A DNA stretch of 64,000 bases from Sphingobium arseniciresistens (GTDB lineage Bacteria > Pseudomonadota > Alphaproteobacteria > Sphingomonadales > Sphingomonadaceae). Of the stretch, positions 27,695 to 46,734 are shown one piece after another; positions within the stretch are counted from its first letter, which is position 1; the number at the start of each line of letters is the position of its first letter. A program made the translations under genes and the position numbers. Under the pieces are notes generated by a model that saw only the letters and a program-made list of their open reading frames with translations, was not told the origin of the DNA and ran no database searches. The stretch spans positions 124,001 through 188,000 of the forward strand of contig JARFNK010000007.1 of NCBI GenBank assembly GCA_029167225.1, in the 5' to 3' direction.

Positions 27695-29188
27695 ATGGGG
27701 TTTGGGGGGTTAAAGGCGGGGGCCCGGTCTGCCGCGCGTGGGACTTTCCCACGCCGGCATCTGGAAATCGCTTCAAGGGACGAGACGGTCGCGTATCGGC
27801 GACCTGGGCCGTGGGCAAGGTTGCTGCTCGCGCCAACCCTGTTGCTTGCACTGCTGATGCTGTGTGCGCTGCTGATCGCCGTGCCGTCCGGCGTGGGTGG
27901 CAGGGCGGATGCAGCGGCGGCTGGCGGGCCGGGCAGCTTCCAGGGCGTGGCCTCCTGTGCCGGCACCACCTGCCATGGCCGCATGGAAGGCGACGGCAAG
28001 GTCGTGCGCCAGGACGAGCTTCGCCGCTGGCAGGAGCCCTCGACACCGGGCGGCGCGCATAGCCGTGCCTTTGCCGTGCTGTCCGGTACGCGCAGCCGGC
28101 AGATCGCCGCGACCTTGGGCATCGGCGATCCGACCGCATCGGGCGAGTGCCTTGGCTGCCATTCCACCCCGGCGTCGGCCGCGCATGGCGCCCGCTTCCT
28201 GACGCAGGACGGCGTCGGCTGCGAGGCGTGCCATGGCCCGGCGGGCGGCTGGATCGCCTCGCATTATGCCGTGGGGGCGACCCACGGCTCCAATGTCGCG
28301 CAGGGCATGGTGCCGCTGGAACGCCCGGCCGCGCGCGCGGCAGTGTGCCTCGATTGCCATTTCGGCAGCGCGAAGAATGGCCAGTTCGTCACGCACCGGC
28401 TGATGGCGGCCGGGCATCCGCGCATTGCCTTCGAGCTGGATCTCTTCTCCTCGCTGCAGGCGCATCATGACGAGGATGCCGACTATGCCCGGCGCAAGGG
28501 GCGGATGGACGGCGTCGCCACATGGGCCGTGGGGCAGGCGATGGCGGTGGAGCGACAGGCGAGCCTCTATGCCAGCGCGAAGGGGACGGAAGGCGCCTTC
28601 CCTGAATTCTATTTTTTCGACTGCCATAGCTGCCACCGCCGCATTTACGACCAGGAAGAGCGGGTGAAGACATGGGAGGCGAATGCCGCACGGCCGATCC
28701 CGTCCGGCATGCCGCCCTTCAACGACGAGAACATGATCATGCTTGCGGCGGCGGCGAAGGTTGCCGCGCCGGCGCTCGCGGTCAGGCTCGACAGCGACAG
28801 CCGCGCCTTCCACGCCGCCATCGCGAAGGATCGCCCCGCCTCCATCGCGGCCGCTGGACGGCTTGCGCAGACGGCGGGGGCTCTGGCCTCCGCGCTGTCC
28901 GCGGCCGGCGGCAGTGACATGGGTTTTGCCATCGTGCAGCAGATCGGCGGCACGGCGCTTAGCCCGCGCTTCACCGATTATGAGGGCGCGGTGCAGGCGG
29001 TAATGGGTATCGACACCATCCTGAATGCCATGGTCCGCTCCGGCCGGGTGACGCAGGGCGCGGCGGCGGGCATCCGGGCGAACGTCAACCGTGCCTATGG
29101 CGCGGTGAAGAAACCCAACAGCTTCCGCCCGGCGGAGTTCCGCAGTGCGCTGGGCAGCGCCGTATCGAGCATCGGGGCGCTGCGGTGA
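27695..29188 (+). CDS. Membrane-anchored multihaem c-type cytochrome (four CXXCH plus one CX4CH)
   Basis: 497 residues from ATG 27695 (GTG 27689 is the alternative). A basic N-terminus is followed by a hydrophobic segment (ARLLLAPTLLLALLMLCALL), acting as signal or anchor, then a periplasmic domain. Haem sites in order: CAGTTCH (CX4CH), CLGCH, CEACH, CLDCH and CHSCH. The middle part with CEACHGPAGGWI resembles the cytochrome c554/octahaem-reductase style of multihaem protein. It is the first gene of a tight run to 37175; its TGA overlaps the GTG preceding the next gene. Predicted to pass electrons in the periplasm; partner and potential are unknown. Confidence 0.85.
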   Translation: MGFGGLKAGARSAARGTFPRRHLEIASRDETVAYRRPGPWARLLLAPTLLLALLMLCALLIAVPSGVGGRADAAAAGGPGSFQGVASCAGTTCHGRMEGDGKVVRQDELRRWQEPSTPGGAHSRAFAVLSGTRSRQIAATLGIGDPTASGECLGCHSTPASAAHGARFLTQDGVGCEACHGPAGGWIASHYAVGATHGSNVAQGMVPLERPAARAAVCLDCHFGSAKNGQFVTHRLMAAGHPRIAFELDLFSSLQAHHDEDADYARRKGRMDGVATWAVGQAMAVERQASLYASAKGTEGAFPEFYFFDCHSCHRRIYDQEERVKTWEANAARPIPSGMPPFNDENMIMLAAAAKVAAPALAVRLDSDSRAFHAAIAKDRPASIAAAGRLAQTAGALASALSAAGGSDMGFAIVQQIGGTALSPRFTDYEGAVQAVMGIDTILNAMVRSGRVTQGAAAGIRANVNRAYGAVKKPNSFRPAEFRSALGSAVSSIGALR

Positions 29189-29193
29189 GGATC

Positions 29194-31227
29194 ATGCCTC
29201 GTACCCGAGTGATTTCGCGCCAGATGACATCATCTGGCGTCTCGGAAATCACTAGAAATAGAGTAGGCGCGCGGACGGCGGGGTTGCTGGCGGCATCGGC
29301 GCTCATCCTCTCCTCCTGCGGTGGAGGCGGGAGCAGCGGCGGGGGTACGCCCACGCCATCGCCCACGCCCACGCCGACACCCACCGGCGTCTTCGCCGTG
29401 CCCGCGCAGGAATCGCTGTCGGTCGCCGATGTCGAGACGATCGTCGCGCGCGCCGTGGCGGAGGCGCGGGCGCGCAACCTGCCCGCGACCATCGCTGTTA
29501 CCGACCGCGTCGGCAATGTGCTCGCCATCTTCAACATGACGGGTGCGCGGGCCACCGCCACGACCTCCGCCGCGCCCAATGGCGACAATATCGACGCGCA
29601 GAACCTCACGATCCCGGCGGCGGGCGGCGCCATCGCCAAGGCCATTACCGGCGCCTATCTCTCCAGCGGCGGCAATGCCTTTTCCACCCGCACGGCGAGC
29701 CAGATCGTGCAGCCGCATTTCCCGCCCGCGCCGACGACCGTAGGGCTCGAAAGCGGCCCGCTGTTCGGCGTGCAGTTCAGCCAGCTTCCTTGCTCCGATC
29801 TCAATGCCCGCTTCGCTGCGTCGGGCAGCGGCGCGTTGATTGGCCCGAAGCGCTCGCCCTTGGGGCTCGCCGCCGATCCTGGCGGCTTCCCGCTCTACAA
29901 GAACGGCGTGGTCGTGGGGGGCATCGGGGTGATGGCGGACGGGGTCTATGGCTTCGATCCCAATATCCTCGACGTGGACGATGATGCGGAGGAATATATC
30001 GCGCTCGCCGGCACGGTGGGGTTCGAGGCACCCGAAGCGATCCGCGCTAACCAGATCAGCGTCGATGGCACGCAGCTGCGCTATTCGGACGCCAGCTATG
30101 CCAATCTGATCGCCACCGGAACACCCAGCTATGCGGCGACCGTTGGCGTCCTGGGGCAGCTGGTCGCGGTGCGCGGCTATTATGGCGATCCCGCGCCGGC
30201 CATCCGCGCGGGCACCGCCTATGGCACGGAGGCATCAGGGGTCCGCCCCGCCCGCACCGCTGAATTTTCCAATGTCGATGCCTTCATCCTGACCGATGGC
30301 GCAGGCAATGATCGCTTCCCGATCCGTGCTGCGACCGATGCCGGGGACGTGACCCAGCCGCTGACCGCCGCCGAAGTCACCGCGATCCTTGAGGAAGCGT
30401 TCAAGGTGATGAGTCGCGCCCGCGCGCAGATCCGCAAGCCGCTGGACAGCCGCGCGCAGGTGTCGATTTCCATCGTCGATACGCGCGGGCAGGCACTGGG
30501 TATCATCCGATCGCCCGATGCCCCGATCTTCGGCACGGATGTCTCGCTGCAAAAGGCGCGCACCGCCGCCTTCTTCTCCAACGCGAAGGCCGGCGACCAG
30601 TTGCTGGGCGATCCCAGCGCAGATGTGCGGCATTTCGTCGGCGCCGCGCGCACATTCTTCAGCGACCAGAGCGCGCTCACCGGCAAATATGCGTTCAGCG
30701 ACCGCGCCAATGGCAATCTCTCGCGGCCCTATTTCCCCGATGGCGAGGTGTCGCGCCCGAACGGCCCCTTCTCCCGCCCGATCGCGCAGTTCAACGCCTT
30801 CTCCACCGGGCTGCAATCGGCGCTGGTGCTGGGCAATCTGGGCGCGCATCTCGCCTTCGTCACCGGCGCGGCGGCCAGCGACACGCCGCAGCGCTGCACC
30901 GCCATTCCCGACGCCGCGACGGGCCAGAACCGGTTGCAGAACGGTATCCAGATCTTCCCCGGCTCCGTGCCGATCTATCGCGGGTCGGTGCTGGTCGGCG
31001 GTATCGGCGTATCGGGCGACGGCATCGATCAGGACGACATGATCAGCTTCCTTGGCCTGCATAATGGCGGACTGCGGGTGGGCGGGGTCGGCAATGCGCC
31101 GGCCGCCATCCGCTCCGACCAGATCGTGGTCGACCTGGGCAATGCGACCGTGCGGCTGCGCTTCATCGGCTGCCCCTTCGCGCCCTTCCTCGACACCGCC
31201 ACCCAGAATGTGTGCGAGGGGCTGTAG
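29194..31227 (+). CDS. Lipoprotein with two HbpS/GlcG-like (DUF336) domains
   Basis: 677 residues from ATG 29194. The signal ends in a lipobox (ASALILSSC) followed by GGGGSSGGG and a Pro/Thr linker, so it should be lipid-anchored. Two domains of the HbpS/GlcG family are visible: LSVADVETIVARAVAEARAR...TIAVTDRVGNVLAIF near the N-terminus and LTAAEVTAILEEAFKV...SISIVDTRGQALG...KARTAAFFS in the second half. HbpS proteins bind haem or related cofactors in the cell envelope. It starts 5 bases after the first cytochrome stop and is followed by an outer-membrane barrel 3 bases on. A role in haem/redox sensing or delivery to the cytochromes is inferred from context. Confidence 0.78.
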   Translation: MPRTRVISRQMTSSGVSEITRNRVGARTAGLLAASALILSSCGGGGSSGGGTPTPSPTPTPTPTGVFAVPAQESLSVADVETIVARAVAEARARNLPATIAVTDRVGNVLAIFNMTGARATATTSAAPNGDNIDAQNLTIPAAGGAIAKAITGAYLSSGGNAFSTRTASQIVQPHFPPAPTTVGLESGPLFGVQFSQLPCSDLNARFAASGSGALIGPKRSPLGLAADPGGFPLYKNGVVVGGIGVMADGVYGFDPNILDVDDDAEEYIALAGTVGFEAPEAIRANQISVDGTQLRYSDASYANLIATGTPSYAATVGVLGQLVAVRGYYGDPAPAIRAGTAYGTEASGVRPARTAEFSNVDAFILTDGAGNDRFPIRAATDAGDVTQPLTAAEVTAILEEAFKVMSRARAQIRKPLDSRAQVSISIVDTRGQALGIIRSPDAPIFGTDVSLQKARTAAFFSNAKAGDQLLGDPSADVRHFVGAARTFFSDQSALTGKYAFSDRANGNLSRPYFPDGEVSRPNGPFSRPIAQFNAFSTGLQSALVLGNLGAHLAFVTGAAASDTPQRCTAIPDAATGQNRLQNGIQIFPGSVPIYRGSVLVGGIGVSGDGIDQDDMISFLGLHNGGLRVGGVGNAPAAIRSDQIVVDLGNATVRLRFIGCPFAPFLDTATQNVCEGL

Positions 31228-31230
31228 GCG

Positions 31231-33090
31231 ATGGCGATCGCTTCCCTCCTGCCGATGGTCGCGGCGATGGCGGCGCAGGGCGCCCCGCAACAGGGCGCGC
31301 CCGTGCCCCCGCCGCCGCCGGAAAACTGGCAGGAGCTCGTGCGTCAGCCCGATGCCGATCCGGTGCAGGACCAGTCGATCAACGGCCGCCGCCGCCCCGG
31401 CTTCGAGAAAGAGCTGCCCGAAGCCGTCACCCAGACCAATGCCGGCGCCATCACCGCGCCCCCGCCAGAGGCCTTCCCGACCGATCAGGTGCCGATCCCG
31501 GATCGCTGGCGCCTGATCGAGAGCCTTGGCGTGGTCAAGGAACGCTGGTTCGATCCCTATAACCAGAACACGCTGAAGGGCGACCGGCCGATCGACCGGG
31601 CCAAGCTGCCATGGCTGCCGATCAAGGGTGACGACTGGTTCTTCGTCGTCAATGCCGTCAGCGACACAGTGCTGGAGCCGCGCACCTTCCCCATCCCCGT
31701 CGGCGTGCAGACCACCGAGCGGCCCGGCAGCCTCGACGTGTTCGGCAAGGATGCGAGCTATGTGCTGAGCCAGACCTTCATCGGCGGCGTGGCGCTCATC
31801 AAGGGATCGACCGCGTTCAAGCCGCCGGAGATCGAATATCGCCTGACGCTCGCGTTCAACATCAACCATGTGAATGTTCCCGAGCGGCGCGTGCTGTTCG
31901 TGGAGCCCAGCAAGCGCAGCCGCCGCACCGACCATTTCCTGGGCGTGCAGGAAGCGTTCGTCGACTATCACCTTGCCAACACCTCCGACCGTTATGATTT
32001 CCGCTCGATCCGGGTCGGCATCCAGCCGTTCCAGAGCGATTTTCGCGGCTTCCTGTTCAACGACCAGCAGCTTGGCGTGCGCCTGTTCGGCAATCGCGAC
32101 AACAACCGCTTCCAGTTCAACCTCGCGGCCTTCTGGCGGCTGGAGAAGGACACCAATTCGGGCCTGAACTCTGTGGTGCAGAAGCCGCGCGACGATTTCG
32201 TCTTCGTCGCGAACGTCTATCGGCAGGATTTCCTGCTGCCCGGCCTCACCAGCCAGATCACCGCCGTCTACAATATGAACCGCGAGAAGGATGACGTCGA
32301 GATCGACGACAATGGCTTCCCGGTGCGCCCGGCGCTGCTCGGCACCCTGCGGGGGCGTGCATATGACGTCGTGTATCTCGGCTACAATGTCGACGGGCGG
32401 ATCGGGCGGCTGAACCTTACCGGGTCGCTCTATGGCGCGCTCGGGGAAGACCGGAACAGCTTCTTCACCGATCGCAAGGCGGAAATCCGAGCCTTCTTCG
32501 CGGCGGCGGAACTGAGCTACGACATCGACTGGATGCGCTTCCGTCTGTCCGGCCTCTACGCCAGCGGTGATGGCGATCCGAATGACGACACCGAAAACGG
32601 CTTCGATGCGATCTTCGAAAACCCCATCTTCGCTGGCGCCGACACCAGCTACTGGATCAGGCAGACCATCCCTTTCGCGGGCGGCGGGCGGGTCATCTCC
32701 ATCAACGGCCGCAACGGCATCCTCAATTCGCTGCGTTCGTCGAAGGAACAGGGGCAGTCGAACTTCAACAATCCCGGCACGATGCTGGTTGGCGCGGGTG
32801 CGGATTTCGACCTGACGCCGCAGATCCGCTTGTCCGCCAACGCCAACCATCTGTGGTTCGAAAATACTGCGACGCTGCAGCAACTGCGCGTCGAGGGCAG
32901 CATCCCCAAATCCATCGGCTGGGATCTCTCCACCGCCGCTATCTGGCGGCCCAAGGCGACGCAGAACATCGTCTTCCGGCTCTCCGGCGCGACATTGCTG
33001 CCGGGTAGCGGGTTCAAGGATCTCTTCACCAATCGCGACCGGAACAAGGCCTATTATTCCGTGCTCGCCAACCTGATCGTGAGCTATTGA
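31231..33090 (+). CDS. Outer-membrane beta-barrel protein of unknown family
   Basis: 619 residues with a short hydrophobic N-terminus (MAIASLLPMVAAMAAQGAP), a proline-rich stretch, then long alternating strands with aromatic girdles and short turns (for example RLTLAFNINHVNV, RFQFNLAAFWRLEKD, RIGRLNLTGSLYGALG), and a C-terminus ending in LIVSY, the aromatic end typical of BAM substrates. No CXXCH is present. It is packed between a haem-type lipoprotein (3-base gap) and a ten-haem cytochrome (TGATG overlap at 33088-33092). This arrangement recalls porin-cytochrome conduits, in which a barrel insulates haems through the outer membrane, but I do not recognise MtrB-family signatures. Confidence 0.7.
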   Translation: MAIASLLPMVAAMAAQGAPQQGAPVPPPPPENWQELVRQPDADPVQDQSINGRRRPGFEKELPEAVTQTNAGAITAPPPEAFPTDQVPIPDRWRLIESLGVVKERWFDPYNQNTLKGDRPIDRAKLPWLPIKGDDWFFVVNAVSDTVLEPRTFPIPVGVQTTERPGSLDVFGKDASYVLSQTFIGGVALIKGSTAFKPPEIEYRLTLAFNINHVNVPERRVLFVEPSKRSRRTDHFLGVQEAFVDYHLANTSDRYDFRSIRVGIQPFQSDFRGFLFNDQQLGVRLFGNRDNNRFQFNLAAFWRLEKDTNSGLNSVVQKPRDDFVFVANVYRQDFLLPGLTSQITAVYNMNREKDDVEIDDNGFPVRPALLGTLRGRAYDVVYLGYNVDGRIGRLNLTGSLYGALGEDRNSFFTDRKAEIRAFFAAAELSYDIDWMRFRLSGLYASGDGDPNDDTENGFDAIFENPIFAGADTSYWIRQTIPFAGGGRVISINGRNGILNSLRSSKEQGQSNFNNPGTMLVGAGADFDLTPQIRLSANANHLWFENTATLQQLRVEGSIPKSIGWDLSTAAIWRPKATQNIVFRLSGATLLPGSGFKDLFTNRDRNKAYYSVLANLIVSY

Positions 33091-36000
33091 TGGCGCGCGC
33101 CGGCTTCCTTCCCGCCATCCCGCTGCGGGCATGGGCTGTCTTGTTGCTCGCCGCGCTGCTGATCCCGGTCGCGATGCTCAAGGCCAGCGATGACGAGAAG
33201 CCGGTGAAGCGCGTCTACGTCACCGCACCATCCGCACCGATGAGCCAGACGGACGCGCAGGTGGCGGAGAAGACCGATGGTTGCGTCAGCTGCCACACCG
33301 CCAGCGACGAACCCTCCATGCACGCGACGCCCGCGGTGAAGCTGGGCTGCGCGGATTGCCATGGCGGCAATGCGGCGGTGCGCGGCGATCCTTCGCACGG
33401 CTTTGACGACCCCGCCTATGTCGCCGCGCGGGAAAAGGCGCATGTGCTGCCGACCTATCCCGAAAGCTGGCACTATCCCTCCTCCGCCAACCCCAAGCGC
33501 AGCTATGCGCTGCTGAACCGGGAAGCGCCGGAGTTCGTCCGCTTCGTGAACCCCAGCGACTATCGCGTCGCGCGCGAGGCCTGCGGCGCCTGCCACCTGC
33601 AGACCATCGAGGCGGCGGAACGATCGCTGATGGCGTCGGGCGCGATGCTGTGGGGCGGGGCGGCCTATAATAACGGCATCGTTCCCTTCAAGAACTACAT
33701 CTTCGGCGAGGCCTATACCCGCGACGGCAAGCCCGCGAAGATCGTCTCCCCCGGATCGCCGCCCGGCACGCTGACCGACGAACAGAAAGCACGCGGCGCG
33801 CTGGCCGAGATGTATCCGCTGCCGACCTGGCATGTCATTCCGCCGGGCGACGTCTTCCGCGTGTTCGAGCGCGGCGGGCGCAATATCGCCACGCAGTTCC
33901 CCGAAATCGGCCTGCCCAACCCGACCGGCTCCATCCAGCGGCTGGAGGAGCCCGGCCGCCCCGATCTCAAGCAGTCGAGCCGCGGCCCGGCGACTGGCAT
34001 CCGCGTGGCCATTCCCGTGCTCAACATCCACAAGACCCGCCTCAATGATCCGTTCATGTGGTTCATGGGCACCAACGACCAGCCCGGCGACTATCGCCAT
34101 TCGGGCTGTTCGGGCTGCCATGTCGTCTATGCCAATGACCGCGAGCCGCGCCACAGCCTGATCTATGCGCAATATGGCCGGGACGGGCAGACGGCGACGG
34201 TCGACCCCACCATCGCGAACAAGATGGCGAGCGCCGAGGGCGAACATGGCGGCGGCCATGGCGGGCTGAAGGGTGCGCCAGAGGGTGCGGGCGAGGGCGC
34301 GGAAGAGGGCCATGGCGACACAGGGCATGATGTCGTGCCGCCCGCCGATCATCCCATCAGGGCGGTCAAGGAAAGCGGCCACCCGATCCGCCACGCCTTC
34401 ACCCGCGCGATCCCGACCGCGCAGTGCATGAACTGCCACATGCACCAGCCCAATATCTTCCTGAACAGCTATCTCGGCTACACCATGTGGGACTATGAGT
34501 CCGACGCGCCATTGATGTGGCCGGAAAAGCAGAAATACCCGACCGCTGCGCAAGTCCATGAGACGCTGGAGCGCAACCCGGAAGGCGCCGCGCCGCGCGG
34601 CCGCTGGTCGGACCTTGATTTCCTGCGCAACGTCTATGACGACATCAACCCCAAGGCGAAGGACACCCAGTTCGCCGACTATCACGGCCATGGCTGGAAC
34701 TTCCGCGCGATCTTCAAGCGCGACCGGGAAGGCCATCTGCTCGATGCGGACGGCAAGGTCGTGGCGAATGACGACCCGGAGAAGTTCCGCAAGGCCGGCG
34801 CGCCCGCGTTCGTCCAGCCGGGCGAGCAGAAGGGCAAGGCCGTCCACATGATGGACATCCATGCGGAAAAGGGCCTGCAATGCGCCGACTGCCATTTCGC
34901 GCAGGACAGCCATGGCAATGGCTATATCTATGGCGAGGTGGCGAACGCCATCGAGATCGGCTGCAAGGATTGCCACGGCACCGCCGACGCATGGCCGACC
35001 CTGCTCACCTCCGGCCCGGCGGCGCCTCCGGGCGGCACCAACCTTGCGCTGCTGCGCAACCCGGACGGCAAGCGCCGCTTCGAATGGTATTATGATGCGG
35101 GCGGCCGCCGGCGGCTGGTGCAGCGCTCCATCGTCGACCCGAAGCTGGAATGGGAGGTCAGCCTGGTCAAGGATGCGGTCGACCCCGCCAGCCCGCATTT
35201 CAACGCCCGCGCCGCCCGCGCGAAGCTGATGAGCAAGTCCGGCGCGGAGGATGGCAGCTTCGCCTTCGGCCCCGGCGTGGCGAAGGAAGACCTTGCGCAT
35301 AATCCCGACGAGATGGCCTGTTTCACCTGCCACCTCAGCTGGACGACCAGTTGCGGCGGCTGCCACCTGCCGATCGAGGCGAACTGGAAGACGAAGATCC
35401 AGCATTTCGAGGGTGAGGAAACGCGCAATTTCGCGACCTATAATCCGCAGGTCGCGCGCGACGAGATGTTCCAGCTCGGCCGCCACATGACGACCAAGGG
35501 CAACGAGATCACGCCGGTCCGCTCGACCTCCGCGCTGGTGCTGTCTTCCACCAACATCAACCGCGAGCGCATCTATATCCAGCAGCCGCCGATTTCCGGC
35601 ATCGGCTTCTCGTCGCAGGCCTTCGCGCCGCATTTCCCGCACACGGTGCGCAAGACCGAGACGAAAACCTGCTCGGACTGCCACCTGTCGGCGAAGGACG
35701 ACAATAACGCGATCATGGCGCAGCTGCTGCTGCTCGGCACCAATTTCGTGAACTTCGTGGGGATGAACGCCTGGACCGGGCTGGAGGGCGGGTTCGAGGC
35801 GATCCGCGTCACCGAATGGGACGAGCCCCAGGCGGTGATCGGTTCCTATCTCCAGAAATATGCCTATCCCGATTATTGGCGGATGCATGTGGAGAAGAAT
35901 GGCCGGGAGCTCATCAACTGGGTGCGCGGCAAGACTTTCGACGGCAAGGCTTCGGGCGAAACGCAGCCGATGGAGGAATTCCGCAACGTCACGCAGGGCA

Positions 36001-37175
36001 CGAAGGATCGCGTGGGCTGCCTGCAGTTGCGCGGCGAATATATGTTCGTGGCGGAGGGGCGCGGCGGCTTCCGCGCCTATGACGTGGCGTCGGTTGCCAA
36101 CAAGGGCTTTTCGGAGCGGATTGTTTCCAGCCCCTTCTCCGCGCTCGGCCATGACACCGGCGTCAAGTCGAAGAACGCCACCTGCGTCGCGCTGCCGACC
36201 AACCAGCCGATCAACCCGCTCCGCTCCACGCCGGAACTGCGGAAAATCAACAAGGAACAGCCCTTCCTGCCGATCTATTCCTACGCCGCCGTCACCGACA
36301 GCGTCGAAGGGCTCATCATGGTCAATATCGAAACGCTGGCCGATGGCGAGTTCCGCAACAATTTCTTGAAACGCGCCGTTACCTGGAACCCGGACGGCGT
36401 GCTGAATGGCGCGCGGCATATCCAGTTGGCCGGGCAGGTCGCCTATATTGCGGCCGATGCAGGGCTGGTGGTGGTGGACCTTGCCGATCCGCTGCATCCC
36501 CGCCTTGCCGCCGTCCGCCCGCTCAAGGATGCGCGGGCGAGCGCCATCCAGTTCCGCTATCTGTGGGTAACGGACGGCGAGGGGCTCAAGCTCTTCGATG
36601 TGACGAAGCTGCTCGATCCGGTCGCGGTTCCCTCCGCCACCGTGCCGCTGGCCGACGCCCGCCGCGTCTACCTCGCGCGCACCTATGCCTATGTCGCGGC
36701 GAAGGCGGACGGGCTCGTCATCGTCAACATCACCAACCCGACCAGGCCGGTCATCTATCGCAAGGAGACCTTCGGCGGCGCGATGAACGATGCGGAGGAT
36801 GTCGTCGTCGCCACCACCAACGCCTCGCTCTTCGCCTATGTCGCGGATGGCAGGAACGGCATGAAGGTGATCCAGCTGACCAGCCCGGCAAGCCAGCCCA
36901 ATTTCTATGGCTTCTCGCCCGCGCCGGTGCCGGAACTCATTGCCTGGGCGCGCACGCCGTCACCCGCGCTGGCGCTCTCCAAAGGGCTGGACCGCGACCG
37001 GGCGGTGGACGAGACGGGCGGACAGATCGCGGTCTTCGGCCGGCTTGGCGCGCGGCCCTTCACCCGGAACGAAATGGAGCGGCTGTTCCTGACGGGCAAG
37101 GGCGTGCCGTACAAGGTCAGCGACGATGTGGACATGGCGGGGTGGCGTCCACCGATGAAAATTGCCGAGCGTTAG
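33090..37175 (+). CDS. Ten-haem c-type cytochrome fused to LVIVD beta-propeller-like repeats
   Basis: 1361 residues from ATG 33090, overlapping the previous stop by one base. An N-terminal hydrophobic segment (AWAVLLLAALLIPVAML) serves as signal or anchor. Ten CXXCH sites follow: CVSCH, CADCH, CGACH, CSGCH, CMNCH, CADCH, CKDCH, CFTCH, CGGCH and CSDCH. A Gly/His/Glu-rich linker lies between the fourth and fifth (about 34230-34350). From about residue 970 the chain turns into LVIVD-type repeats (for example AYIAADAGLVVVDLADPLHP, AYVAAKADGLVIVNITNP), which usually build surface beta-propellers. This joins a haem wire to a possible binding or docking platform. Last gene of the operon; a histidine kinase starts 135 bases on. 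Confidence 0.88.
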   Translation: MARAGFLPAIPLRAWAVLLLAALLIPVAMLKASDDEKPVKRVYVTAPSAPMSQTDAQVAEKTDGCVSCHTASDEPSMHATPAVKLGCADCHGGNAAVRGDPSHGFDDPAYVAAREKAHVLPTYPESWHYPSSANPKRSYALLNREAPEFVRFVNPSDYRVAREACGACHLQTIEAAERSLMASGAMLWGGAAYNNGIVPFKNYIFGEAYTRDGKPAKIVSPGSPPGTLTDEQKARGALAEMYPLPTWHVIPPGDVFRVFERGGRNIATQFPEIGLPNPTGSIQRLEEPGRPDLKQSSRGPATGIRVAIPVLNIHKTRLNDPFMWFMGTNDQPGDYRHSGCSGCHVVYANDREPRHSLIYAQYGRDGQTATVDPTIANKMASAEGEHGGGHGGLKGAPEGAGEGAEEGHGDTGHDVVPPADHPIRAVKESGHPIRHAFTRAIPTAQCMNCHMHQPNIFLNSYLGYTMWDYESDAPLMWPEKQKYPTAAQVHETLERNPEGAAPRGRWSDLDFLRNVYDDINPKAKDTQFADYHGHGWNFRAIFKRDREGHLLDADGKVVANDDPEKFRKAGAPAFVQPGEQKGKAVHMMDIHAEKGLQCADCHFAQDSHGNGYIYGEVANAIEIGCKDCHGTADAWPTLLTSGPAAPPGGTNLALLRNPDGKRRFEWYYDAGGRRRLVQRSIVDPKLEWEVSLVKDAVDPASPHFNARAARAKLMSKSGAEDGSFAFGPGVAKEDLAHNPDEMACFTCHLSWTTSCGGCHLPIEANWKTKIQHFEGEETRNFATYNPQVARDEMFQLGRHMTTKGNEITPVRSTSALVLSSTNINRERIYIQQPPISGIGFSSQAFAPHFPHTVRKTETKTCSDCHLSAKDDNNAIMAQLLLLGTNFVNFVGMNAWTGLEGGFEAIRVTEWDEPQAVIGSYLQKYAYPDYWRMHVEKNGRELINWVRGKTFDGKASGETQPMEEFRNVTQGTKDRVGCLQLRGEYMFVAEGRGGFRAYDVASVANKGFSERIVSSPFSALGHDTGVKSKNATCVALPTNQPINPLRSTPELRKINKEQPFLPIYSYAAVTDSVEGLIMVNIETLADGEFRNNFLKRAVTWNPDGVLNGARHIQLAGQVAYIAADAGLVVVDLADPLHPRLAAVRPLKDARASAIQFRYLWVTDGEGLKLFDVTKLLDPVAVPSATVPLADARRVYLARTYAYVAAKADGLVIVNITNPTRPVIYRKETFGGAMNDAEDVVVATTNASLFAYVADGRNGMKVIQLTSPASQPNFYGFSPAPVPELIAWARTPSPALALSKGLDRDRAVDETGGQIAVFGRLGARPFTRNEMERLFLTGKGVPYKVSDDVDMAGWRPPMKIAER

Positions 37176-37310
37176 ATGTTGCGAATGGACGGAAACAGGG
37201 GCATTCCGTGCCGCATGATCGCTCCGCATTGGTGTAAAATTATCAATAAGAACCACTGGCAGGAGTGTCGAGGCGATTGCTCCCGCCCCGTCCTGTCTGC
37301 ATAATACGCC

Positions 37311-39200: not shown

Positions 39201-39271
39201 TCCCTGCCGGCTCTCTTCGGGGGCACTGACGCGGGATGGGCAGGGGCCCGGGGGATCGTCCTGTGTCAATG

Positions 39272-39288
39272 ATGGCCGGAGAGGCCAT
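39272..39288. terminator. Hairpin between converging genes
   Basis: ATGGCC (39272-39277), loop GGAGA, GGCCAT (39283-39288), in the 153-base gap between the convergent kinase and phosphodiesterase genes. There is no T tract on either side, so this is a weak bidirectional terminator candidate. Confidence 0.3.
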
Positions 39289-39353
39289 TGAGGGCGCGTG
39301 GGTAAGCTCAGGCCCGCAAAGCTCCCTGCTGCCGGCCCGGTGATTGCGGCTGC

Positions 39354-40220
39354 TCAGTCCGAAGGGCGCTCCGCCAGCAAGCTGCGGACCAGCGGCTGCA
39401 GGGTCTCGTCGAACTTGGCGAGCATCACATGGTCGTCCGCGGTCTCGAAATGGGAAACCAGCCCCTCGCCGGTCCAGCGATGCAGCGCATAGGCGGGCGG
39501 ATCGGCGATGATCATCGGCCGGTTGTCCGGCCGTTCCGGGTCGATCGGGGACAGGTCCAGCGCCACCTGCGGCGCGGTCGAAGGGCAGATGGCCACGGTC
39601 GTTCCCTTCCATGGCGCGACGATCGCACGGTGGAGATGGCCGCAGATCAGCGCCTGCACCTGGGTGCGGCCGGCGATCGTCTGGGCAAAACGCGTGACCC
39701 AGGGTTCCGTGGGGGAGGTGTTCATCCATTCGATGCCGACCTCGACCGGCGGATGATGCATGACGATGATGACCGGAACCTCCGGCTCCTCGTCCAGCCG
39801 CGCGCGCAGCCATGCCGCCCGCGTCTCGCAGAAGGCGCCGCCATGGCGGCCCGGATCGAGCGTGTCGATGACGATCAACCGCGCGCCCGGCAGCGGCAGC
39901 ACATAATGGACGAAGCCATCGCCGCCCGCGCTCAGATCCAGGGGGATGTGCGGGAAATGGACGGCGAAATTGGCGCGCTCGTCATGATTGCCCATGCAGG
40001 GCCACACCGGGAAGGGGCATTGGCTGAAGGCATTGGCCAGGCGACGATAGCTGTCGACATCGCCCCTGTCTGTCAGGTCGCCGGTGGCGAGCAACAGGTC
40101 CGGCCGGTTCGGCCCGTCGATCAGCGCGCGCAGCACCTGGTCCAGCCGCTTGCGATTATACTCGGCCGGATTGTCGGGCTCGAAGCCCAGATGAACGTCG
40201 GTGATCTGTGCGATCAGCAT
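39354..40220 (-). CDS. Metallophosphoesterase, CpdA-like cyclic-nucleotide phosphodiesterase
   Basis: 288 residues starting at MLIAQITDVHLG (complement of 40218-40220, with AAGGGGGAAG as ribosome binding site just upstream). The binuclear metal motifs of class III cyclic-nucleotide/glycerophosphodiester phosphodiesterases are all present in order: DVHLG, GDLTDRG, MGNHDE, VMHHPP and GHLHR. CpdA enzymes hydrolyse cAMP; GpdQ relatives hydrolyse glycerophosphodiesters, so the substrate should be tested. It lies 28 bases downstream of the FHA-cytochrome gene on the same strand and may be the last gene of that operon, whose first product has two cyclic-nucleotide domains. A longer reading from 40523 merely runs into the cytochrome gene. 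Confidence 0.82.
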   Translation of the reverse strand: MLIAQITDVHLGFEPDNPAEYNRKRLDQVLRALIDGPNRPDLLLATGDLTDRGDVDSYRRLANAFSQCPFPVWPCMGNHDERANFAVHFPHIPLDLSAGGDGFVHYVLPLPGARLIVIDTLDPGRHGGAFCETRAAWLRARLDEEPEVPVIIVMHHPPVEVGIEWMNTSPTEPWVTRFAQTIAGRTQVQALICGHLHRAIVAPWKGTTVAICPSTAPQVALDLSPIDPERPDNRPMIIADPPAYALHRWTGEGLVSHFETADDHVMLAKFDETLQPLVRSLLAERPSD

Positions 40221-40248
40221 CCGGCTTCCCCCTTCGCCTGCGCGTCGT

Positions 40249-42096
40249 TTATGCGCGCGGTCGTATTTGTCGATCGCGCACTCCCGTCTGCCCGGCCGGC
40301 TTGAGTCGCCGTGCAGGCAGCCATGGTGCGCCATCATCCGCGTGGTAGCTGTGACATAGAGCACAGCCGGACGGAACATCAGACTTCGATGATTCCCCGC
40401 CATGGCAGGTGCGGCACGTCGCGATGCCCGGCAGCATGAGGTCGCTGGCCTTGCTCGACCTTGGCGCAGCGTGGCAGCTTTCGCAGCTTTCGGTGCGGTG
40501 TGCGGCATGATCGAACCAGCCATGCATCATGTAGCGCATCGGCTGGCGCACCGGCGCGACCTGCCATTCCCCATTGTCCGTCTTGCCGCCCGCGGGAGGA
40601 ACGACGGTGTGGCAGTCATAACACGCCCCGCCCTTCGAAAAGACCGCGCGGATCGCTGCGTCGGCGCTGCCCGCCCGCGTCGCCGCCGCGCCGAAATAGG
40701 CGTGATAGACCTGCCCCTGCGCATAGTCGCCCGGCCGCCGCCGGGCCATGCCGCCCAGCTGGACGGGGCGGGCGGGGCCGGTCGAGCGATAATAGGCGGT
40801 CAGGTCCGCCACCACCTGCGCCGGTTCGCCATGGCGCAGCGTGCGGACGGTGCCGCCCAGCGTCTCGAAGGCCAGACTGTGGCACATCTGGCAGTCGCGC
40901 TCCATCTGCACCGGCAGGAAACGCACGCCGTCCGCCGTCGGCTTGTGGCAATCCTTGCACGCGAGCGCATCGCCAAAGCCGTTTTGCGCCTTCATGCTTG
41001 CCGCCATGCGGGCGACCCCGCCGGTCTTGAGCAGGTGCAGGCTGTGCGGGAATTTCAGGCCGCTGTCCTCGCTTGGATGATCGGCGAGCGACGCGCGTTC
41101 GAAGCGCGGTACCGGATAGGCGAGGCTGGGCGGGCCGGCCATGATGGTCGGGCGGAATTCGGGATGCGCCGTGCCGAAATCGCCGGCATTGCCGATCTTC
41201 GTATCCTTCAATCGCGCGTCCAGCGACCCGTGGCAGTCGGTGCAGAAGGCCTGGGGCGTCGTCGGCATCGGCCCGGCACCTTCATGTTCGCGATGGCAAT
41301 CGACGCAGGCGCCCTCCGGCGGCTTGCCGAAGGCGTGGGCGACACTGGCGAGGATCGCGCCGCCAACCCCCGGCGCCTCTCGCGCGCCGGCGATGCGGTC
41401 GGGCGGGGCATGATCGTGGACCTGGCTGTGGCAGGTCTTGCAGGCGCTGTCGCGGACGGAGACGAACGCCTTCTGGTGACAGGTCTCGCACTTGCCCTCC
41501 AGCGCATGATGCGCCTTGCTGAGCGGGCCGGATGACCATGCAGCATCGCCCTTCACGGTGTCCCCCTTTACCGCATAGATGTTCCGCATATCCTCCACAG
41601 GGCGGGTGGCATAGCTGATAACCGGCACGGCGAGGAAGCCAATCAGGATCGCCAGCGCCATGCCCCATGCCGACATGCGCTTGCCCGGCAGCAACCCGCG
41701 CAGCGAGAAGACGCGGGCCTCCTCCTTGTCCTGCGACGCCTCCGAAACGGCATCGACCCGAAGGACGGACAGCACCGCCTCGCCATCTTCGCCGCGCGAC
41801 ACCGTGATGCGGTGGCCGCCAAGGCGCAACTCCGCGCCTTGCGCCAGGTCGATCTCCGCCTTGTCGGTGCTGCGTCCGTCGACGGTGAAGCCCAGCGTGC
41901 CCGTGGCTTTGACGCCGAGATAGCGATCGTTGAGCCGGGTGATGCGGGCATGATCAGGGAGCACCGCCAGATCGGCCAGATGGATGTCGCTCGCAGCATC
42001 GCGCCCGACGGCGATCTGCGCCTTTTCGACCGTGCGCGGGCGAACGATCTCGCGCCCGTCGGCGGTGAAGCTGATCTGCCGGATGATGAAGGTCAT
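40249..42096 (-). CDS. FHA domain - membrane helix - ten-haem cytochrome fusion
   Basis: 615 residues from MTFIIRQISF. Residues 1-115 read as an FHA fold (VGRDAASDIHLADLAVLPDHARI, then DGRSTD and ELRLGGHRITV). The Ser of the usual SxxH phosphothreonine motif appears to be replaced (LPDH), so peptide binding may be altered. One membrane helix follows (about 142-163), then a periplasmic part with ten CXXCH sites: CETCH (Cys203), CKTCH, CVDCH, CTDCH, CKDCH, CQMCH, CYDCH, CESCH, CRTCH and CALCH. This puts a cytoplasmic signalling-type domain and a periplasmic haem wire on one chain. It starts 8 bases after the cytochrome b-like gene and is probably its periplasmic electron acceptor or donor. Confidence 0.88.
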   Translation of the reverse strand: MTFIIRQISFTADGREIVRPRTVEKAQIAVGRDAASDIHLADLAVLPDHARITRLNDRYLGVKATGTLGFTVDGRSTDKAEIDLAQGAELRLGGHRITVSRGEDGEAVLSVLRVDAVSEASQDKEEARVFSLRGLLPGKRMSAWGMALAILIGFLAVPVISYATRPVEDMRNIYAVKGDTVKGDAAWSSGPLSKAHHALEGKCETCHQKAFVSVRDSACKTCHSQVHDHAPPDRIAGAREAPGVGGAILASVAHAFGKPPEGACVDCHREHEGAGPMPTTPQAFCTDCHGSLDARLKDTKIGNAGDFGTAHPEFRPTIMAGPPSLAYPVPRFERASLADHPSEDSGLKFPHSLHLLKTGGVARMAASMKAQNGFGDALACKDCHKPTADGVRFLPVQMERDCQMCHSLAFETLGGTVRTLRHGEPAQVVADLTAYYRSTGPARPVQLGGMARRRPGDYAQGQVYHAYFGAAATRAGSADAAIRAVFSKGGACYDCHTVVPPAGGKTDNGEWQVAPVRQPMRYMMHGWFDHAAHRTESCESCHAAPRSSKASDLMLPGIATCRTCHGGESSKSDVPSGCALCHSYHADDGAPWLPARRLKPAGQTGVRDRQIRPRA

Positions 42097-42104
42097 GCGC
42101 GGCC

Positions 42105-42986
42105 TTACCAATAGAAGAAGACGGAAACGATGTGCGCGGTCAGCGCGGCCAGCAGCGCGAAGGTGGCGGGCACATGGACGTACAGCCACACCTCGAGCAG
42201 CGCCTTGAGCTTCAGGTGCCTGCGCAATCGGGCCAGCATCGCCTCCTTGCGTTCCAGCAGGGCATCCACTTTTTCCAGCGGGTCATTGCCCAGGTCGGCC
42301 TGGCTGCCGGTATGCACGCGCAACGCGGCATGGGCGCGGGCCGTCGCGCAGTTGCGGTAAGTGCCGGTCAGCCGCCGCCAGATGCCGCCGCCGAACGGGT
42401 CCTGCTCCAGCGACTGGCGCACGAGGTCCGCCTGCTCATGGGGCAGCGGCTGGGCGGCGTCATGCAGCTGACGGTCGATCGAGCGGATGGAATCGAGCAG
42501 CTGCGCCTGCGTCATCTCATCGCGGTTGTTGCTGAGCGCGGCGGGCAGGGCGGCATAGACGGTGATGCCGAACAGGCCGGAGAGGATGACCAGCATCATC
42601 AGCGCCCATGCCAGCGTGTGGACGTTCCAGCCGAGCTGGAAGCCGGTGTGCAGGGTGCCGATGACGATCAGGCTGAGGCCCAGATAGACATGGGCGGACG
42701 TCCATGCCTTCAGGGACCAGCGCCCGCGCGTCATCGCCCGCTTGCGCACGCCCAGCACCGTCAGCCACAGGATGAGCAGCACGCCGATGGTGCCCAGCGT
42801 ATAGCCGTACCAGCTGCCGCCATTGTGGCGCGGCTGCACGTCGATCAGCAGATAGCTGGCGATGACCACCAGGCAGAGCGCGGTCGCGATCTTTGCCCAA
42901 CGGAAACCGGCATGGCTCAGGAAGCCTTCGTGCAGCGTGTCGCCGCTGCGGCGCCGGGGCGCCGGACTCGCCACTCTTGTTGCCAT
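42105..42986 (-). CDS. Cytochrome b-type integral membrane protein
   Basis: 293 residues from MATRVASPAPRRR, the ATG overlapping the stop of the upstream flavoprotein gene by one base (TGATG). Five hydrophobic helices are evident, with His residues positioned for haem b ligation in SAHVYLGLSLIVIGTLHTGF, WNVHTLAWALMM and LYVHVPATFALLAALTAH. A soluble, charged stretch separates helix four from the last. The look is that of cytochrome b561/ferric-reductase-like proteins. Sitting between a flavin/Fe-S protein and a periplasmic multihaem cytochrome, it is the obvious candidate to carry electrons across the inner membrane. Quinone binding is possible but cannot be read here. Confidence 0.75.
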   Translation of the reverse strand: MATRVASPAPRRRSGDTLHEGFLSHAGFRWAKIATALCLVVIASYLLIDVQPRHNGGSWYGYTLGTIGVLLILWLTVLGVRKRAMTRGRWSLKAWTSAHVYLGLSLIVIGTLHTGFQLGWNVHTLAWALMMLVILSGLFGITVYAALPAALSNNRDEMTQAQLLDSIRSIDRQLHDAAQPLPHEQADLVRQSLEQDPFGGGIWRRLTGTYRNCATARAHAALRVHTGSQADLGNDPLEKVDALLERKEAMLARLRRHLKLKALLEVWLYVHVPATFALLAALTAHIVSVFFYW

Positions 42987-45523
42987 CAGGCCTCTCCGCG
43001 TTCGAGGCGGGCGACGGTCAGGAAATCCTCCGGCGCGACGCGGATGGCGGCCCCGGTCGGGCAGGCGCGCACGCAGGCGGGGCCGCCCTCGATCCCCGAA
43101 CACATGTCGCACTTGATCGCCTTCTTGGGCTTTTCGATGCCCGGCTCGGCGTTCTTGTACCGCCATTTCTTCGATGGCTCGCCCGGCCCCGGCCCCATGC
43201 CGAAGAACATCCAGCTGAGCAGCGATGGCTTCTTCGGCGGCACGCTGTCCATGCGGATGACGCCATAGGGGCAGTTGCGCTGGCAGTTGCCGCAGCCGAT
43301 GCAGGTATCGTTGATGAACACCTCGCCATCCGGCCCGCGATGGATGGCGTTGGGCGGGCAATCGGCCATGCAGTGCGGATGCTCGCAATGGCGGCAGCTG
43401 GTCGGCACATGCAGATGCGCGAAGGTCCGCCCGGCCTCCCGGTCGAGGCGGGACAGGCCGTCATGGCTGTCGGCGCAGGCCTTTTCGCAATTGTCGCAGC
43501 CTACGCACAGATGCTCGTCGATCAGCAGCACGTCGGTCGCCTCGCCGATGCCGTTGTCGACCAGGAATTTCGCGGTTTCGGAATACATGTCGACGACGCT
43601 GGAGAAGCTGTCCTTGCGGCCTTCGATGAAGCTGTTGATGTCCTGCCGCGCGGCCATGTCGCGCTTGGCGCGTTCCAGCAGCGCGGGCTTTTTCTCCATC
43701 AGCGCGCGGAAGGCGTCGCCCTTCAGGCGGATGACCTCGGACTTGACCGTGGCCTTGACCGTCGCCGTTCGGCGGCCGCCCGCGATCAGCGTCATCTCGC
43801 CGACATAGGAGCCGGCGGGGAGGTAGGAGAGGAACACCTGCTTCCCGCCGATCTTCTTTTCCACCACCATCGATCCCACCCGGATGACGAAGATGTCGGT
43901 GCCTTCCTCGCCTTCGGTGATGATCGCCTGCCCGGCGCGGACCTGCATGATCTCCGACGTGTCCATTACCTCGGCAAGGTCGGCGGATGTCAGCCCTTCG
44001 CCAAAGAGCTGCAGCAGCTGACGCTCTGTCGAGATGCGGGTGACGGCCCGGCGTGCGGCGGGCACGGACGACATGAGCTTGAGCGCTGCCGTGCGCGACA
44101 CCTCCACCATGATCGAATCCGCGCCGGCGCGCACGGTCGCGCCGCGCCGTCGGCCGGAAATCAGGCCGACCTCGCCGAAGATGGAACTCGCCTCGACCGG
44201 CACGGTGATGGAGGCATCCTCCTTGTCCACCTCGACCAGCGCCTGCCCGGAGGCGATGGCGAAGAGCGAGGATCCGGGCGCCGCCCGCTCGAAGATCACC
44301 TCGCCCTTGAGGTAGAAGCGCGCGGCGCTGTCCAGCATGAACTCTCGCATCTGCAGGGGCGACAGCCCTTCGAGGATGGAGATGTTCGTGCGCAGGAATT
44401 CCAGCCATTCGTCGACGCTGCGATTGCCCGGCAATTCCTTGAATTTCGCGGCCAGAATGGGCTCATCGGCGGGTTTCAACGCGGTGTTGCCGTTGATGAA
44501 CTCGACCACGTCATGGCCCTGGTTCATGCAATGCTTGATAAGCGGATAGCCCGCCAGCGCGCCGATGACGAAGATGCCCGGCGCCGTCGTCTCGAACACC
44601 GGGGAGAGTTTTGGAAAGGCGAGCCGGTCGCCGCTCGTGAACTCTATCCCGCATTCCTCCACGAAGCTGCGCGGCGGCGCGGAGCCCATGCGTGCGATGA
44701 TCCGGTCGCAGCGGATTTTCTGCTCGCCATCGCGGGTGTCGAGCGTGATCCAGCCGGGCTCGACCAGCGATGTCGTGCTTTCGGTGAGGATGTTGACGCG
44801 GCCGGTCGCGCCCGCCGCCATCAGCGCCTTCACGTTCGCGTCCTTGGCCGTGGAGAACTCCGCCGACCGGTTGACCAGGCTCACCACATTGCCCTGCGCC
44901 TCGTCGGCGGCAAGGCCCAGCGCATTCTCGATGCCCGCGTCGCCGCCGCCGATCACGAAGATATGCTCGTCATTATATTCGGCCGGGTCGTCGAGCTGAT
45001 ATTGCACATGGGGCAGGTCGCCGCCCGGCACGCGCATCAGATTGGGGTTGCCCTGCGTGCCGATGGCCATCACCACGGTTTCCGCGACGATCTCCTGCCC
45101 ATTGGTCAGCGTCAGCTTATAGGGCGGTGCCCGGCGCTGGATCTCGCGGGTCTGGCTGCTGCCGTCGCGGGCGCGGGTGACGATCTGCTGCACGCTGCCG
45201 GGGATGGGATCGCCCATGCCCTCGATTGCCTTCACTTCGCTGCGATAGGCGACATTGACGCCCAGCGCCTTGGCCTGCTCGTTCCAGATGCCCAGGATCG
45301 CCTCGCGCTTGCCGGCATCGAAATCGCAGTCCGAACGCAGCACAAGCTGGCTCGGCGTCGCCATCACATGCTTGCCCTTCTGATATTTGAAGATGGTATC
45401 GGAAAGGTGGTCTGTCTTTTCCAGCAGCACATGGGCAAGGCCAAGCTGCGCCGCGCGCGAAGCCGCGCTGAGCCCCGCCGGGCCAGATCCCACAATAGCG
45501 ATGCGCACGCGCTCACCCAACAT
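42986..45523 (-). CDS. FAD oxidoreductase - two cNMP-binding domains - ferredoxin fusion
   Basis: 845 residues. Residues 1-350: thioredoxin-reductase-like flavoprotein with GSGPAGLSAA for FAD and VIGGGDAGIENA for NAD(P). About 380-500 and 505-630: two CRP-type cyclic-nucleotide-binding domains whose phosphate-binding cassettes keep Glu and Arg (FGEVGLISGRRRGATVRA; GEMTLIAGGRRTATVKA). About 665-845: a DMSO-reductase-B-like ferredoxin with CVGCDNCEKAC, CRHCEHPHCMADCP, CIGCGNCQRNCP and CDMCSGIEGGPACVRACP, enough for four 4Fe-4S clusters. No CXXC redox disulphide is seen in the flavoprotein part. No signal peptide, so it is cytoplasmic. GGGGGA precedes the start. First gene of the operon with the membrane cytochromes; predicted NAD(P)H-fed electron input gated by cAMP or cGMP. 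Confidence 0.9.
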   Translation of the reverse strand: MLGERVRIAIVGSGPAGLSAASRAAQLGLAHVLLEKTDHLSDTIFKYQKGKHVMATPSQLVLRSDCDFDAGKREAILGIWNEQAKALGVNVAYRSEVKAIEGMGDPIPGSVQQIVTRARDGSSQTREIQRRAPPYKLTLTNGQEIVAETVVMAIGTQGNPNLMRVPGGDLPHVQYQLDDPAEYNDEHIFVIGGGDAGIENALGLAADEAQGNVVSLVNRSAEFSTAKDANVKALMAAGATGRVNILTESTTSLVEPGWITLDTRDGEQKIRCDRIIARMGSAPPRSFVEECGIEFTSGDRLAFPKLSPVFETTAPGIFVIGALAGYPLIKHCMNQGHDVVEFINGNTALKPADEPILAAKFKELPGNRSVDEWLEFLRTNISILEGLSPLQMREFMLDSAARFYLKGEVIFERAAPGSSLFAIASGQALVEVDKEDASITVPVEASSIFGEVGLISGRRRGATVRAGADSIMVEVSRTAALKLMSSVPAARRAVTRISTERQLLQLFGEGLTSADLAEVMDTSEIMQVRAGQAIITEGEEGTDIFVIRVGSMVVEKKIGGKQVFLSYLPAGSYVGEMTLIAGGRRTATVKATVKSEVIRLKGDAFRALMEKKPALLERAKRDMAARQDINSFIEGRKDSFSSVVDMYSETAKFLVDNGIGEATDVLLIDEHLCVGCDNCEKACADSHDGLSRLDREAGRTFAHLHVPTSCRHCEHPHCMADCPPNAIHRGPDGEVFINDTCIGCGNCQRNCPYGVIRMDSVPPKKPSLLSWMFFGMGPGPGEPSKKWRYKNAEPGIEKPKKAIKCDMCSGIEGGPACVRACPTGAAIRVAPEDFLTVARLERGEA

Positions 45524-45657
45524 CTGTCCCCCAGCAATGTGGACGCCTCAGCCTTACCCCCAGCTGTTTGTGCGTCGAACGGGTGCGAACCGTGGGCGGC
45601 ACTCTATCATTTCCTTCGCCGCGCGCTAGAGATGACTGCGCTATGGGGCAGGGGAAA

Positions 45658-46656: not shown

Positions 46657-46734
46657 TCGGGCGGATTGCTGTGTCAGGGCGCGATCGCTGAATAGCGCTT
46701 CCGATATTTGCCGCCCATGTGCATAACCATGCTC

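Follow-up and report, generated by a model that had tools for sequence, protein, structure and literature searches.

A putative cyclic-nucleotide-switched electron-transfer chain across the cell envelope, encoded by seven genes in Sphingobium arseniciresistens and other proteobacteria

The window analysed here is a stretch of 64,000 nucleotides from Sphingobium arseniciresistens (assembly GCA_029167225.1, contig JARFNK010000007.1, positions 124,001 to 188,000). It contains seven genes in two facing groups, A-B-C-D and H-G-F, which are predicted to encode one conserved seven-protein chain. On the forward strand, A (27695..29188) encodes a c554-like cytochrome with an N-terminal hydrophobic signal, four CXXCH motifs and one CX4CH motif; B (29185..31227) a lipoprotein with LSSC at residue 45 and HbpS-like domains; C (31231..33090) an outer-membrane barrel with 18 strands in its model and an AlgE/OprD-type fold; and D (33087..37175) a decahaem cytochrome with C-terminal LVIVD repeats, a beta-propeller by family. 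On the reverse strand, H (42986..45523) encodes a reductase of the flavin adenine dinucleotide (FAD)/nicotinamide adenine dinucleotide (phosphate) (NAD(P)H) type with two cyclic-nucleotide-binding domains and four [4Fe-4S] sites, G (42105..42986) a cytochrome b561-like membrane protein with about four transmembrane helices, and F (40249..42096) a protein with an FHA-like domain, one transmembrane helix and a decahaem part.

All seven open reading frames (ORFs) were without internal stops at these coordinates. The CXXCH motifs numbered 4 in A (beside its CX4CH), 10 in D and 10 in F, which confirms the 24 CXXCH plus one CX4CH reported by the original prediction for the two facing operons. All six frames of the window together gave 34 CXXCH, while 50 first-order Markov sequences averaged 4.2, and no ORF of these simulated windows carried more than two, while two real ORFs carry 10 each; a chance origin of the haem motifs was ruled out by this simulation. 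A and B share an overlap of 4 bases; for D and G, a possible ATG start overlaps the stop of C and H, respectively, the start of D being likely the ATG at 33090. These overlaps (A/B, C/D and H/G) are consistent with operons.

We searched 147 genomes of the same order with D, F and C at E<=0.001, these three proteins being the ones covered genome by genome. Raw matches were found in 26, 26 and 25 genomes, respectively. Two weak partial hits were set aside, that of D in G086 (80 residues at 34%) and that of F in G145 (E 5.5e-4). Strong matches of D, C and F then fell in an identical set of 25 of the 147 genomes, source genome included (Fisher's test on 25/0/0/122: 9e-29, ignoring kinship). Among the listed genera, g1, g3, g4, g6, g7 and g16 were mixed, with some genomes carrying the genes and others lacking them, and D, C and F changed together. 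D and F were less than 10 kb apart in 15 of the 25 genomes and about 16 kb apart in G105; in nine genomes (G035, G065, G074, G080, G097, G110, G119, G121 and G133) they lay on different contigs or hundreds of kb apart. In stretches taken from three of these unlinked genomes, A-B-C-D were adjacent in G035 and G119, and H-G-F together with the accessory gene M, described below, in G119 and G110; around F in G035 the ORF calls gave H, F and M, with an overlapping ORF in place of G.

A sample of 398 genomes of the phylum, overlapping the first, was searched with D and F at the same threshold. The raw matches (22 for D, 29 for F) included 11 and 14 weak partial hits, which were dropped. Strong D was left in 11 genomes: eight, the source genome among them, are of the window's own family, two more belong to the same class and one does not; strong F was present in those 11 and in G296, G295, G179 and G147. 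D without F was not seen in either sample. The four D-less genomes carry the F-G-H module, which argues that the entry module can feed something else. In G296, H-G-F and B-C are close to a contig end with a weak D match elsewhere, and its lack of a strong D is probably an assembly edge; in G147, H-G-F lies near a contig end with no D. In these two genomes the contig ends soon after F or C.

A profile scan of genome contigs with the D alignment gave at least 594 D relatives among 595 pattern hits. We fetched the best 80 of these; their ranking was by similarity to a distant relative, so they are not a random sample. By record titles they belong to Gamma-, Beta- and Alphaproteobacteria or are unassigned, and the carriers include Haliea, Steroidobacter, Duganella, Colwellia and Sphingobium. 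Of the 80 loci, 48 had adequate flanks (at least 9 kb before and at least 4.5 kb after D). Seven genes were called in 32 of them and six in 14 (46/48 with at least six), and B-C-D only in 2. The gene orders were HGFBCDA (29), HGFBCD (11), GFBCDAH (3), HGFCDA (2), BCD (2) and HFBCDA (1). All seven genes were found in 38 of the 80 loci, the full set being rarer among the 32 loci with shorter flanks; ORFs in fetched loci were called mechanically, and some missing genes may be masked by this. The distant loci are mostly on one strand, with A on the other strand in L129, L130 and L137, and in this analysis the layout as two facing operons was observed in sphingomonads. Pairwise distances of the seven proteins over 38 loci correlated with r 0.79-0.91, a value obtained with no control for species relatedness and so not used as evidence. 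Judged by these matches, the system occurs in many kinds of proteobacteria and is not a sphingomonad speciality. D was also found on 13 plasmid records: Sphingobium accounts for 12, as replicons of 0.88-1.28 Mb, and Sphingopyxis indica for one, a conjugative plasmid of 404 kb.

A Sphingopyxis plasmid locus (L020) carries A-B-C-D with no F-G-H within 15 kb, and together with the D-less genomes it is what two unrelated operons, facing each other by chance, could leave behind. Such an explanation is hardly credible, and we rejected it on the co-occurrence of D, C and F: the same 25 genomes carry all three, although the operons are widely separated in nine of them, and other classes have the genes clustered, so that the two operons are one system. 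The original prediction had treated them so, and independent occurrence without co-variation was not found, though F without D occurred in those four of the 398 genomes.

In the entry protein H, 16 of 16 cysteines for four [4Fe-4S] clusters were invariant in an alignment of 55 sequences. The C-terminus matches formate hydrogenlyase subunit 2 (E 1.2e-22) and has the 16 cysteines of a HycB/FdhB-like four-cluster ferredoxin. The first GxGxxG and the GxG of the second Rossmann motif were conserved (alignments of 55-61 sequences). Residues 1-400 contain no CXXC, so H does not belong with the disulphide reductases of the thioredoxin reductase type. H shares the pyridine-nucleotide FAD fold of YpdA (TIGR04018, 113.3 bits, below the cut-off of 339.9) and differs from it in being fused to two cyclic-nucleotide-binding domains and four [4Fe-4S] sites; TrxR-like ferredoxin-NADP+ reductases have a comparable fold. 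The cyclic-nucleotide-binding family PF00027 matched two stretches of H (E 6.6e-30). In the first phosphate-binding cassette Glu was kept in 98% and Arg in 100% of 55 sequences; in the second, Arg was kept in 55/55 and Glu in 39/55, with Gln in 14. H is thus predicted to carry two cyclic-nucleotide-binding domains with key residues largely kept.

The membrane protein G scored 22.7 bits (E 9.5e-5) against PF01292 (Ni_hydr_CYTB/b561), below the cut-off of 30.1, and five histidines were invariant in 58 sequences. Hydropathy gave 4 transmembrane helices in the window protein and 2 to 5 in homologues. In F a single transmembrane helix separates the FHA-like part (PF00498, 24.7 bits, cut-off 20.7) from the haem part. 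Among 61 F homologues, 58 had 10 CXXCH and 3 had 9; beside the ten CXXCH histidines, ten further histidines were conserved in at least 98%, the number that ten bis-His haems need. Natural fusions of H and G were found in G295 and G179 (proteins of 1123 and 1118 residues), and the last ~310 residues align with 38-43% identity to G (best E 3e-71 and 1e-69). The fused loci (L065:3052-6423 and L066:5850-9206) have the fused H-G followed by a nine-haem F. The fusion supports contact of H and G. The 20 kb retrieved around the fusions gave no call of B, C or D, and these two genomes appear to have the input module joined to another output. We infer, with good support, a path from NAD(P)H through FAD, Fe-S clusters and haem b to F; the original prediction had drawn this inner path to the periplasmic haems, and it is backed by the invariant cofactor residues and by the H-G fusion in two genomes.

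Cytochrome A probably carries five haems and is probably periplasmic. Four CXXCH were present in 54/54 homologues and the CX4CH in 56/57, with CX4CHG in 55/57 where one miss was a partial ORF. Beyond the motifs, His 122, 190, 234, 241 and 257 were invariant and His311 was kept in 93% of 55 sequences; the five further invariant histidines correspond to the five haem motifs. Less firmly than for the entry path, A may act as an electron shuttle. A lipobox-like pattern was seen in A in 28 of 57 loci, where by eye it falls on the first haem cysteine (GVASCA etc.), and no weight was given to it.

For the outer module, B was named a haem-type lipoprotein in the original prediction. The lipoprotein part stands, with a lipobox in B and a lipobox-like site in 46 of 67 homologues, the starts of which were called mechanically. 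No c-haem motif was counted in the ORF, however, and B matches the HbpS-like family PF03928 (E 1.5e-23, 83.6 bits, above the cut-off of 25). Weak sequence matches were found to EfgA (6bws, E 1.8e-6) and other HbpS-like structures. B shares domains with HbpS, EfgA and GlcG and differs in having several of them in one lipoprotein of a cytochrome operon.

The predicted model of C (predicted local distance difference test (pLDDT) score 72.5) has 18 strands of at least 9 residues by hand count, as in an AlgE-type fold, and its structure matches are to AlgE and OprD/Occ porins; C differs from the alginate exporter AlgE and these porins in sitting in a cytochrome operon and in low identity (12-14% in the AlgE structure rows; Alginate_exp E 0.0071, 15.6 bits, below the cut-off of 25.2). 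No MtrB-type barrel was among the matches listed in this structure search, which excludes nothing alone. Conservation in C is on one face of most strands and in loops L3 and L7. D matches PF08309 (LVIVD) at E 1.1e-15, has ten CXXCH in 79/79 homologues away from contig ends, and has 14 further invariant histidines (34 sequences, hand count). Neither D nor C yielded a useful match in sequence and profile searches of PDB sequences. D, C and B may form an outer-membrane complex, a proposal held, as for the shuttle role of A, with less support than the entry path.

It is also possible, though doubtful, that D is a reductase facing the periplasm, with C admitting a soluble substrate and B binding it, and with no electron crossing the outer membrane. 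The likeness of C to AlgE and Occ substrate channels suits this explanation, as do the conservation of D, which is like that of an enzyme, and the HbpS-like domains of B, a family including small-molecule binders by general knowledge. However, loops L3 and L7, which in the usual barrel topology face outward, show a conservation suggestive of a partner lying over them or of inward folding, and the 14 invariant extra histidines of D would allow ten closed bis-His haems, with no open catalytic haem evident.

The outer proteins were better conserved than F. Median identity to the window protein over the 80 loci, whose ranking by match to D favours D in this comparison, was 58% for D, 53% for C, 49% for B, 44% for H, 40% for G, 34% for A and 29% for F. 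In the order sample the best match per genome (24 besides the own) was 68-77% for D, 66-79% for C and 42-56% for F; as this sample was searched gene by gene, the difference between D and C on one side and F on the other holds. According to passages of PMC12977616, the ratio of nonsynonymous to synonymous substitution rates (dN/dS) in Geobacter and Shewanella is lowest for inner-membrane cytochromes and highest for outer and extracellular ones, and the percent identity measured here, which is not dN/dS, runs opposite to that trend. The better conservation of D, C and B is the main reason for favouring a dedicated oxidoreductase or a fixed outer-membrane complex over unspecific discharge.

Unspecific discharge would mean an extracellular porin-cytochrome conduit, in which D or A threads C and electrons go to minerals, electrodes or other cells. 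We consider it unlikely. The barrel, the multihaem cytochromes and the lipoprotein do share one operon, the extra histidines of F and A fit closed bis-His electron carriers, F comes close to an MtrC/MtrF domain model, and one locus (L078) is from a metagenome-assembled genome whose name suggests a biocathode. Against these points, C has 18 predicted strands where passages of PMC5971433 give 28 predicted for MtrB, and the outer cytochrome is the best conserved in percent identity, in contrast to the dN/dS trend above. The outer half of the original prediction was not upheld as written: the barrel is predicted to be of the 18-strand AlgE/OprD type, smaller than MtrB as that source describes it, and the outer part is better conserved, unlike in Geobacter and Shewanella.

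The likeness to MtrCAB, PioAB and MtoAB is in the barrel and multihaem cytochromes encoded together, in the probable electron path across the envelope, and in the score of F against PF22113 (MtrC/MtrF domain II/IV; 27.1 bits, E 3.5e-6, cut-off 30), for which A and D gave 15.8 and 10.8 bits. The differences from MtrCAB are the HbpS lipoprotein, the LVIVD repeats, the predicted entry from NAD(P)H rather than quinol, and a barrel of 18 predicted strands in place of a large one, of about 28, that could hold a decahaem cytochrome. C had no match to PF11854 (MtrB/PioB) at E<=1, and the source genome had none at E<=0.001; among the 25 D-positive genomes there were three short matches below cut-off (G110, G119 and G143). 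Against the MtrA/DmsE and OmcA/MtrC models (TIGR03508 and TIGR03507), A and F scored 18.7 and 16.2 versus 192.2 for the first, and A 15 versus 209.3 for the second, D being unlisted at E<=0.1. Membership in the Mtr family was rejected on PF11854, TIGR03507 and TIGR03508, with F as a near miss to PF22113. The statement of the original prediction that no Mtr signature is recognisable is accordingly nearly right: all Mtr-type models scored below cut-off, though F is close to one of them.

Membership among the CymA/NapC quinol dehydrogenases was also rejected, as A, D, F and G had no match to the NapC/NirT Pfam families at E<=1 and A and D scored 13.2 and 16.1 bits against the NrfH model (cut-off 134.2). 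CbcL joins b-type and multihaem parts, and the entry described here resembles the CymA/CbcL type in its hand-over from the inner membrane to periplasmic haems. The CymA/CbcL types are quinol oxidases or quinone reductases according to passages of PMC6295460, whereas here a soluble FAD/4Fe-4S protein with cyclic-nucleotide-binding domains would feed the membrane protein; the same passages of this 2018 survey name only quinol-linked entry families for extracellular electron transfer. Against the model of ExtM, a cytochrome of the Geobacter selenite/tellurite operon, D scored 62.7 bits (NF040943, best stretch D 587-638), and membership in ExtM was rejected with this score far below the cut-off of 800. 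Among the open-access papers listed by literature searches, preprints being outside their scope, no title or opening of an abstract describes this gene cluster. The main text of PMC11475568 has no Sphingo, propeller, LVIVD, HbpS, Haliea or Alphaproteobacteria, and passages of PMC8805035 have no Sphingo. Both the entry module and the outer module appear new to multihaem trans-envelope electron transfer, and the system may work like a porin-cytochrome system.

Control by a second messenger is suggested by H and by its neighbour M (39354..40220, reverse strand), an accessory gene after F encoding a metallophosphoesterase that resembles class III cyclic-nucleotide phosphodiesterases (PF00149, 2.4e-19; SpdA 131.6 bits with cut-off 400 and CpdA 76.8 with cut-off 225, both below cut-off). 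Leaving aside the set of 80 and L064-L067, 12 fetched loci contain H-G-F, and M accompanies it in 10 of them: L019, L057, where it is a few kb from F, L060-L063, L068 and L161-L163, and not L058 and L059. It also follows F in most fetched sphingomonad loci; no M was named in the maps of the best 80 distant loci. Upstream of A lie, on our window, a CHASE2-cyclase (11124-13199; PF05226, PF00211), a short FecR-like protein assigned by eye (13168-13974; no Pfam match at 1e-5), a ShlB/FhaC-type transporter (14193-16052; PF03865) and a Gly-rich exoprotein of 2820 residues (15926-24388). The kept cassette Arg, M in 10/12 loci and cyclases nearby speak for gating, and a control of H by cyclic nucleotides is a well-motivated proposal.

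With modest confidence we favour a dedicated seven-protein trans-envelope chain, switched by cyclic nucleotide, that would lead from NAD(P)H to a terminal oxidoreductase at the outer membrane. H would oxidise NAD(P)H with FAD and pass electrons through its four [4Fe-4S] clusters to haems b of G; G would take them through the inner membrane and hand them to the ten haems of F in the periplasm, and A would carry them to D. With its ten haems and LVIVD propeller, D would join barrel C and lipoprotein B at the outer membrane and act there as a dedicated terminal oxidoreductase on a specific acceptor. Binding of cyclic nucleotide to H would switch the entry, with a neighbouring phosphodiesterase or cyclase helping to set the signal, and the quinone pool would be bypassed, unlike with CymA, CbcL and ImcH. 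The chain is supported by the cofactor residues in H and G, by the extra-histidine sets in F and A that match the haem numbers and by the H-G fusion; its specific outer end is supported by D as the best conserved protein with ten haems in 79/79, and by the conserved face and loops L3 and L7 of C. Electrons may also reach the outside of the cell.

Several observations weigh against the favoured chain, besides the D-less genomes, the two loci with B-C-D alone, the Sphingopyxis plasmid and the ranking of the loci by D. Tight binding to B and C is another possible cause of the conservation of D. The loops of C are overall no better conserved than its strands (0.572 versus 0.583), and the predicted model of D residues 28-1005 had pLDDT 45.2, too poor for a fold search. 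The phosphothreonine-binding site of FHA domains has conserved Arg, Ser, His and Asn, and in F it is only partly kept (Arg63 in 64% and His80 in 67% of 61 sequences). A cyclase was within the fetched stretch in 6 of the 80 loci, that is, as an exception.

Sequence fixes no direction, and the cofactors could run both ways, so an inward chain delivering outside electrons to NAD(P)+ was also considered. NAD(P)+ reduction from high-potential outside donors needs proton-motive coupling, but no device for this was recognised among the Pfam matches of the seven proteins, and we regard the inward chain as very improbable.

The fullest form of the outward chain is a quinone-independent electron exporter gated by a second messenger, spanning both membranes and ending in a conserved haem-propeller oxidoreductase of the outer membrane, in principle a bacterial counterpart of NADPH oxidases; we put it forward tentatively, as possible. 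If true, such a gated exporter would represent a new class of machine for electron transfer across the envelope, one with a wide distribution in Pseudomonadota. It would be a 25-haem chain over two membranes in proteobacteria with entry directly from NAD(P)H and a cyclic nucleotide as switch. To our knowledge Haliea, Steroidobacter, Duganella, Colwellia and Sphingobium are not usually counted as electroactive. The gene set is compact, which would make knock-out and reconstitution straightforward, and the seven genes could serve as survey markers for systems that Mtr-based searches would miss.

The second accessory gene, T (45568..46656, forward strand), is divergent from H and encodes an NrfG/CcmH-like tetratricopeptide repeat protein (PF23914 3.6e-21; NrfG 57.1 bits versus a cut-off of 306). 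It is next to or near H in L019, L060, L062, L063, L068 and L163, and a role as cytochrome c maturation helper is possible. Beyond T lies an Lrp/AsnC regulator (46708-47217); an AsnC-like protein was seen by eye near the system in L096, L123 and L136 and is annotated in L020. Between both operons is a histidine kinase/response-regulator hybrid (37311-39200), not counted in the system. No relative of it was called in other sphingomonad locus maps, and a related kinase was found in the distant loci L125 and L128, away from the system genes.

Directly upstream of A are an acetolactate-synthase-like thiamine diphosphate (ThDP) enzyme (24406-26046; NF006187, 890 bits) and an aldehyde dehydrogenase (26149-27582). 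In 4 of the 80 distant loci (L074, L076, L086 and L090) a ThDP enzyme whose start is similar occurs close to the cytochrome genes. A CHAT-domain protein (7912-11115; PF12770, 2.5e-47) is upstream of the CHASE2-cyclase. In other loci a CHASE2-cyclase follows A in L080 and a related cyclase is present in L075 and L142; a relative of the Gly-rich exoprotein stands beside the system in L019, with matches to it close to F in L161 and L162. In 21 of the 80 loci relatives of a PP2C phosphatase were near, and in 17 relatives of an FHA protein (BLAST clusters, with one member each Pfam-checked). A family of proteins of about 148-311 residues was found just before B, and after F where present, in 8 of the 80 loci (L098, L099, L102, L103, L115, L130, L135 and L137). 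By title these loci are mostly from alphaproteobacteria, and the member at L115:5707-6225 is without Pfam match.

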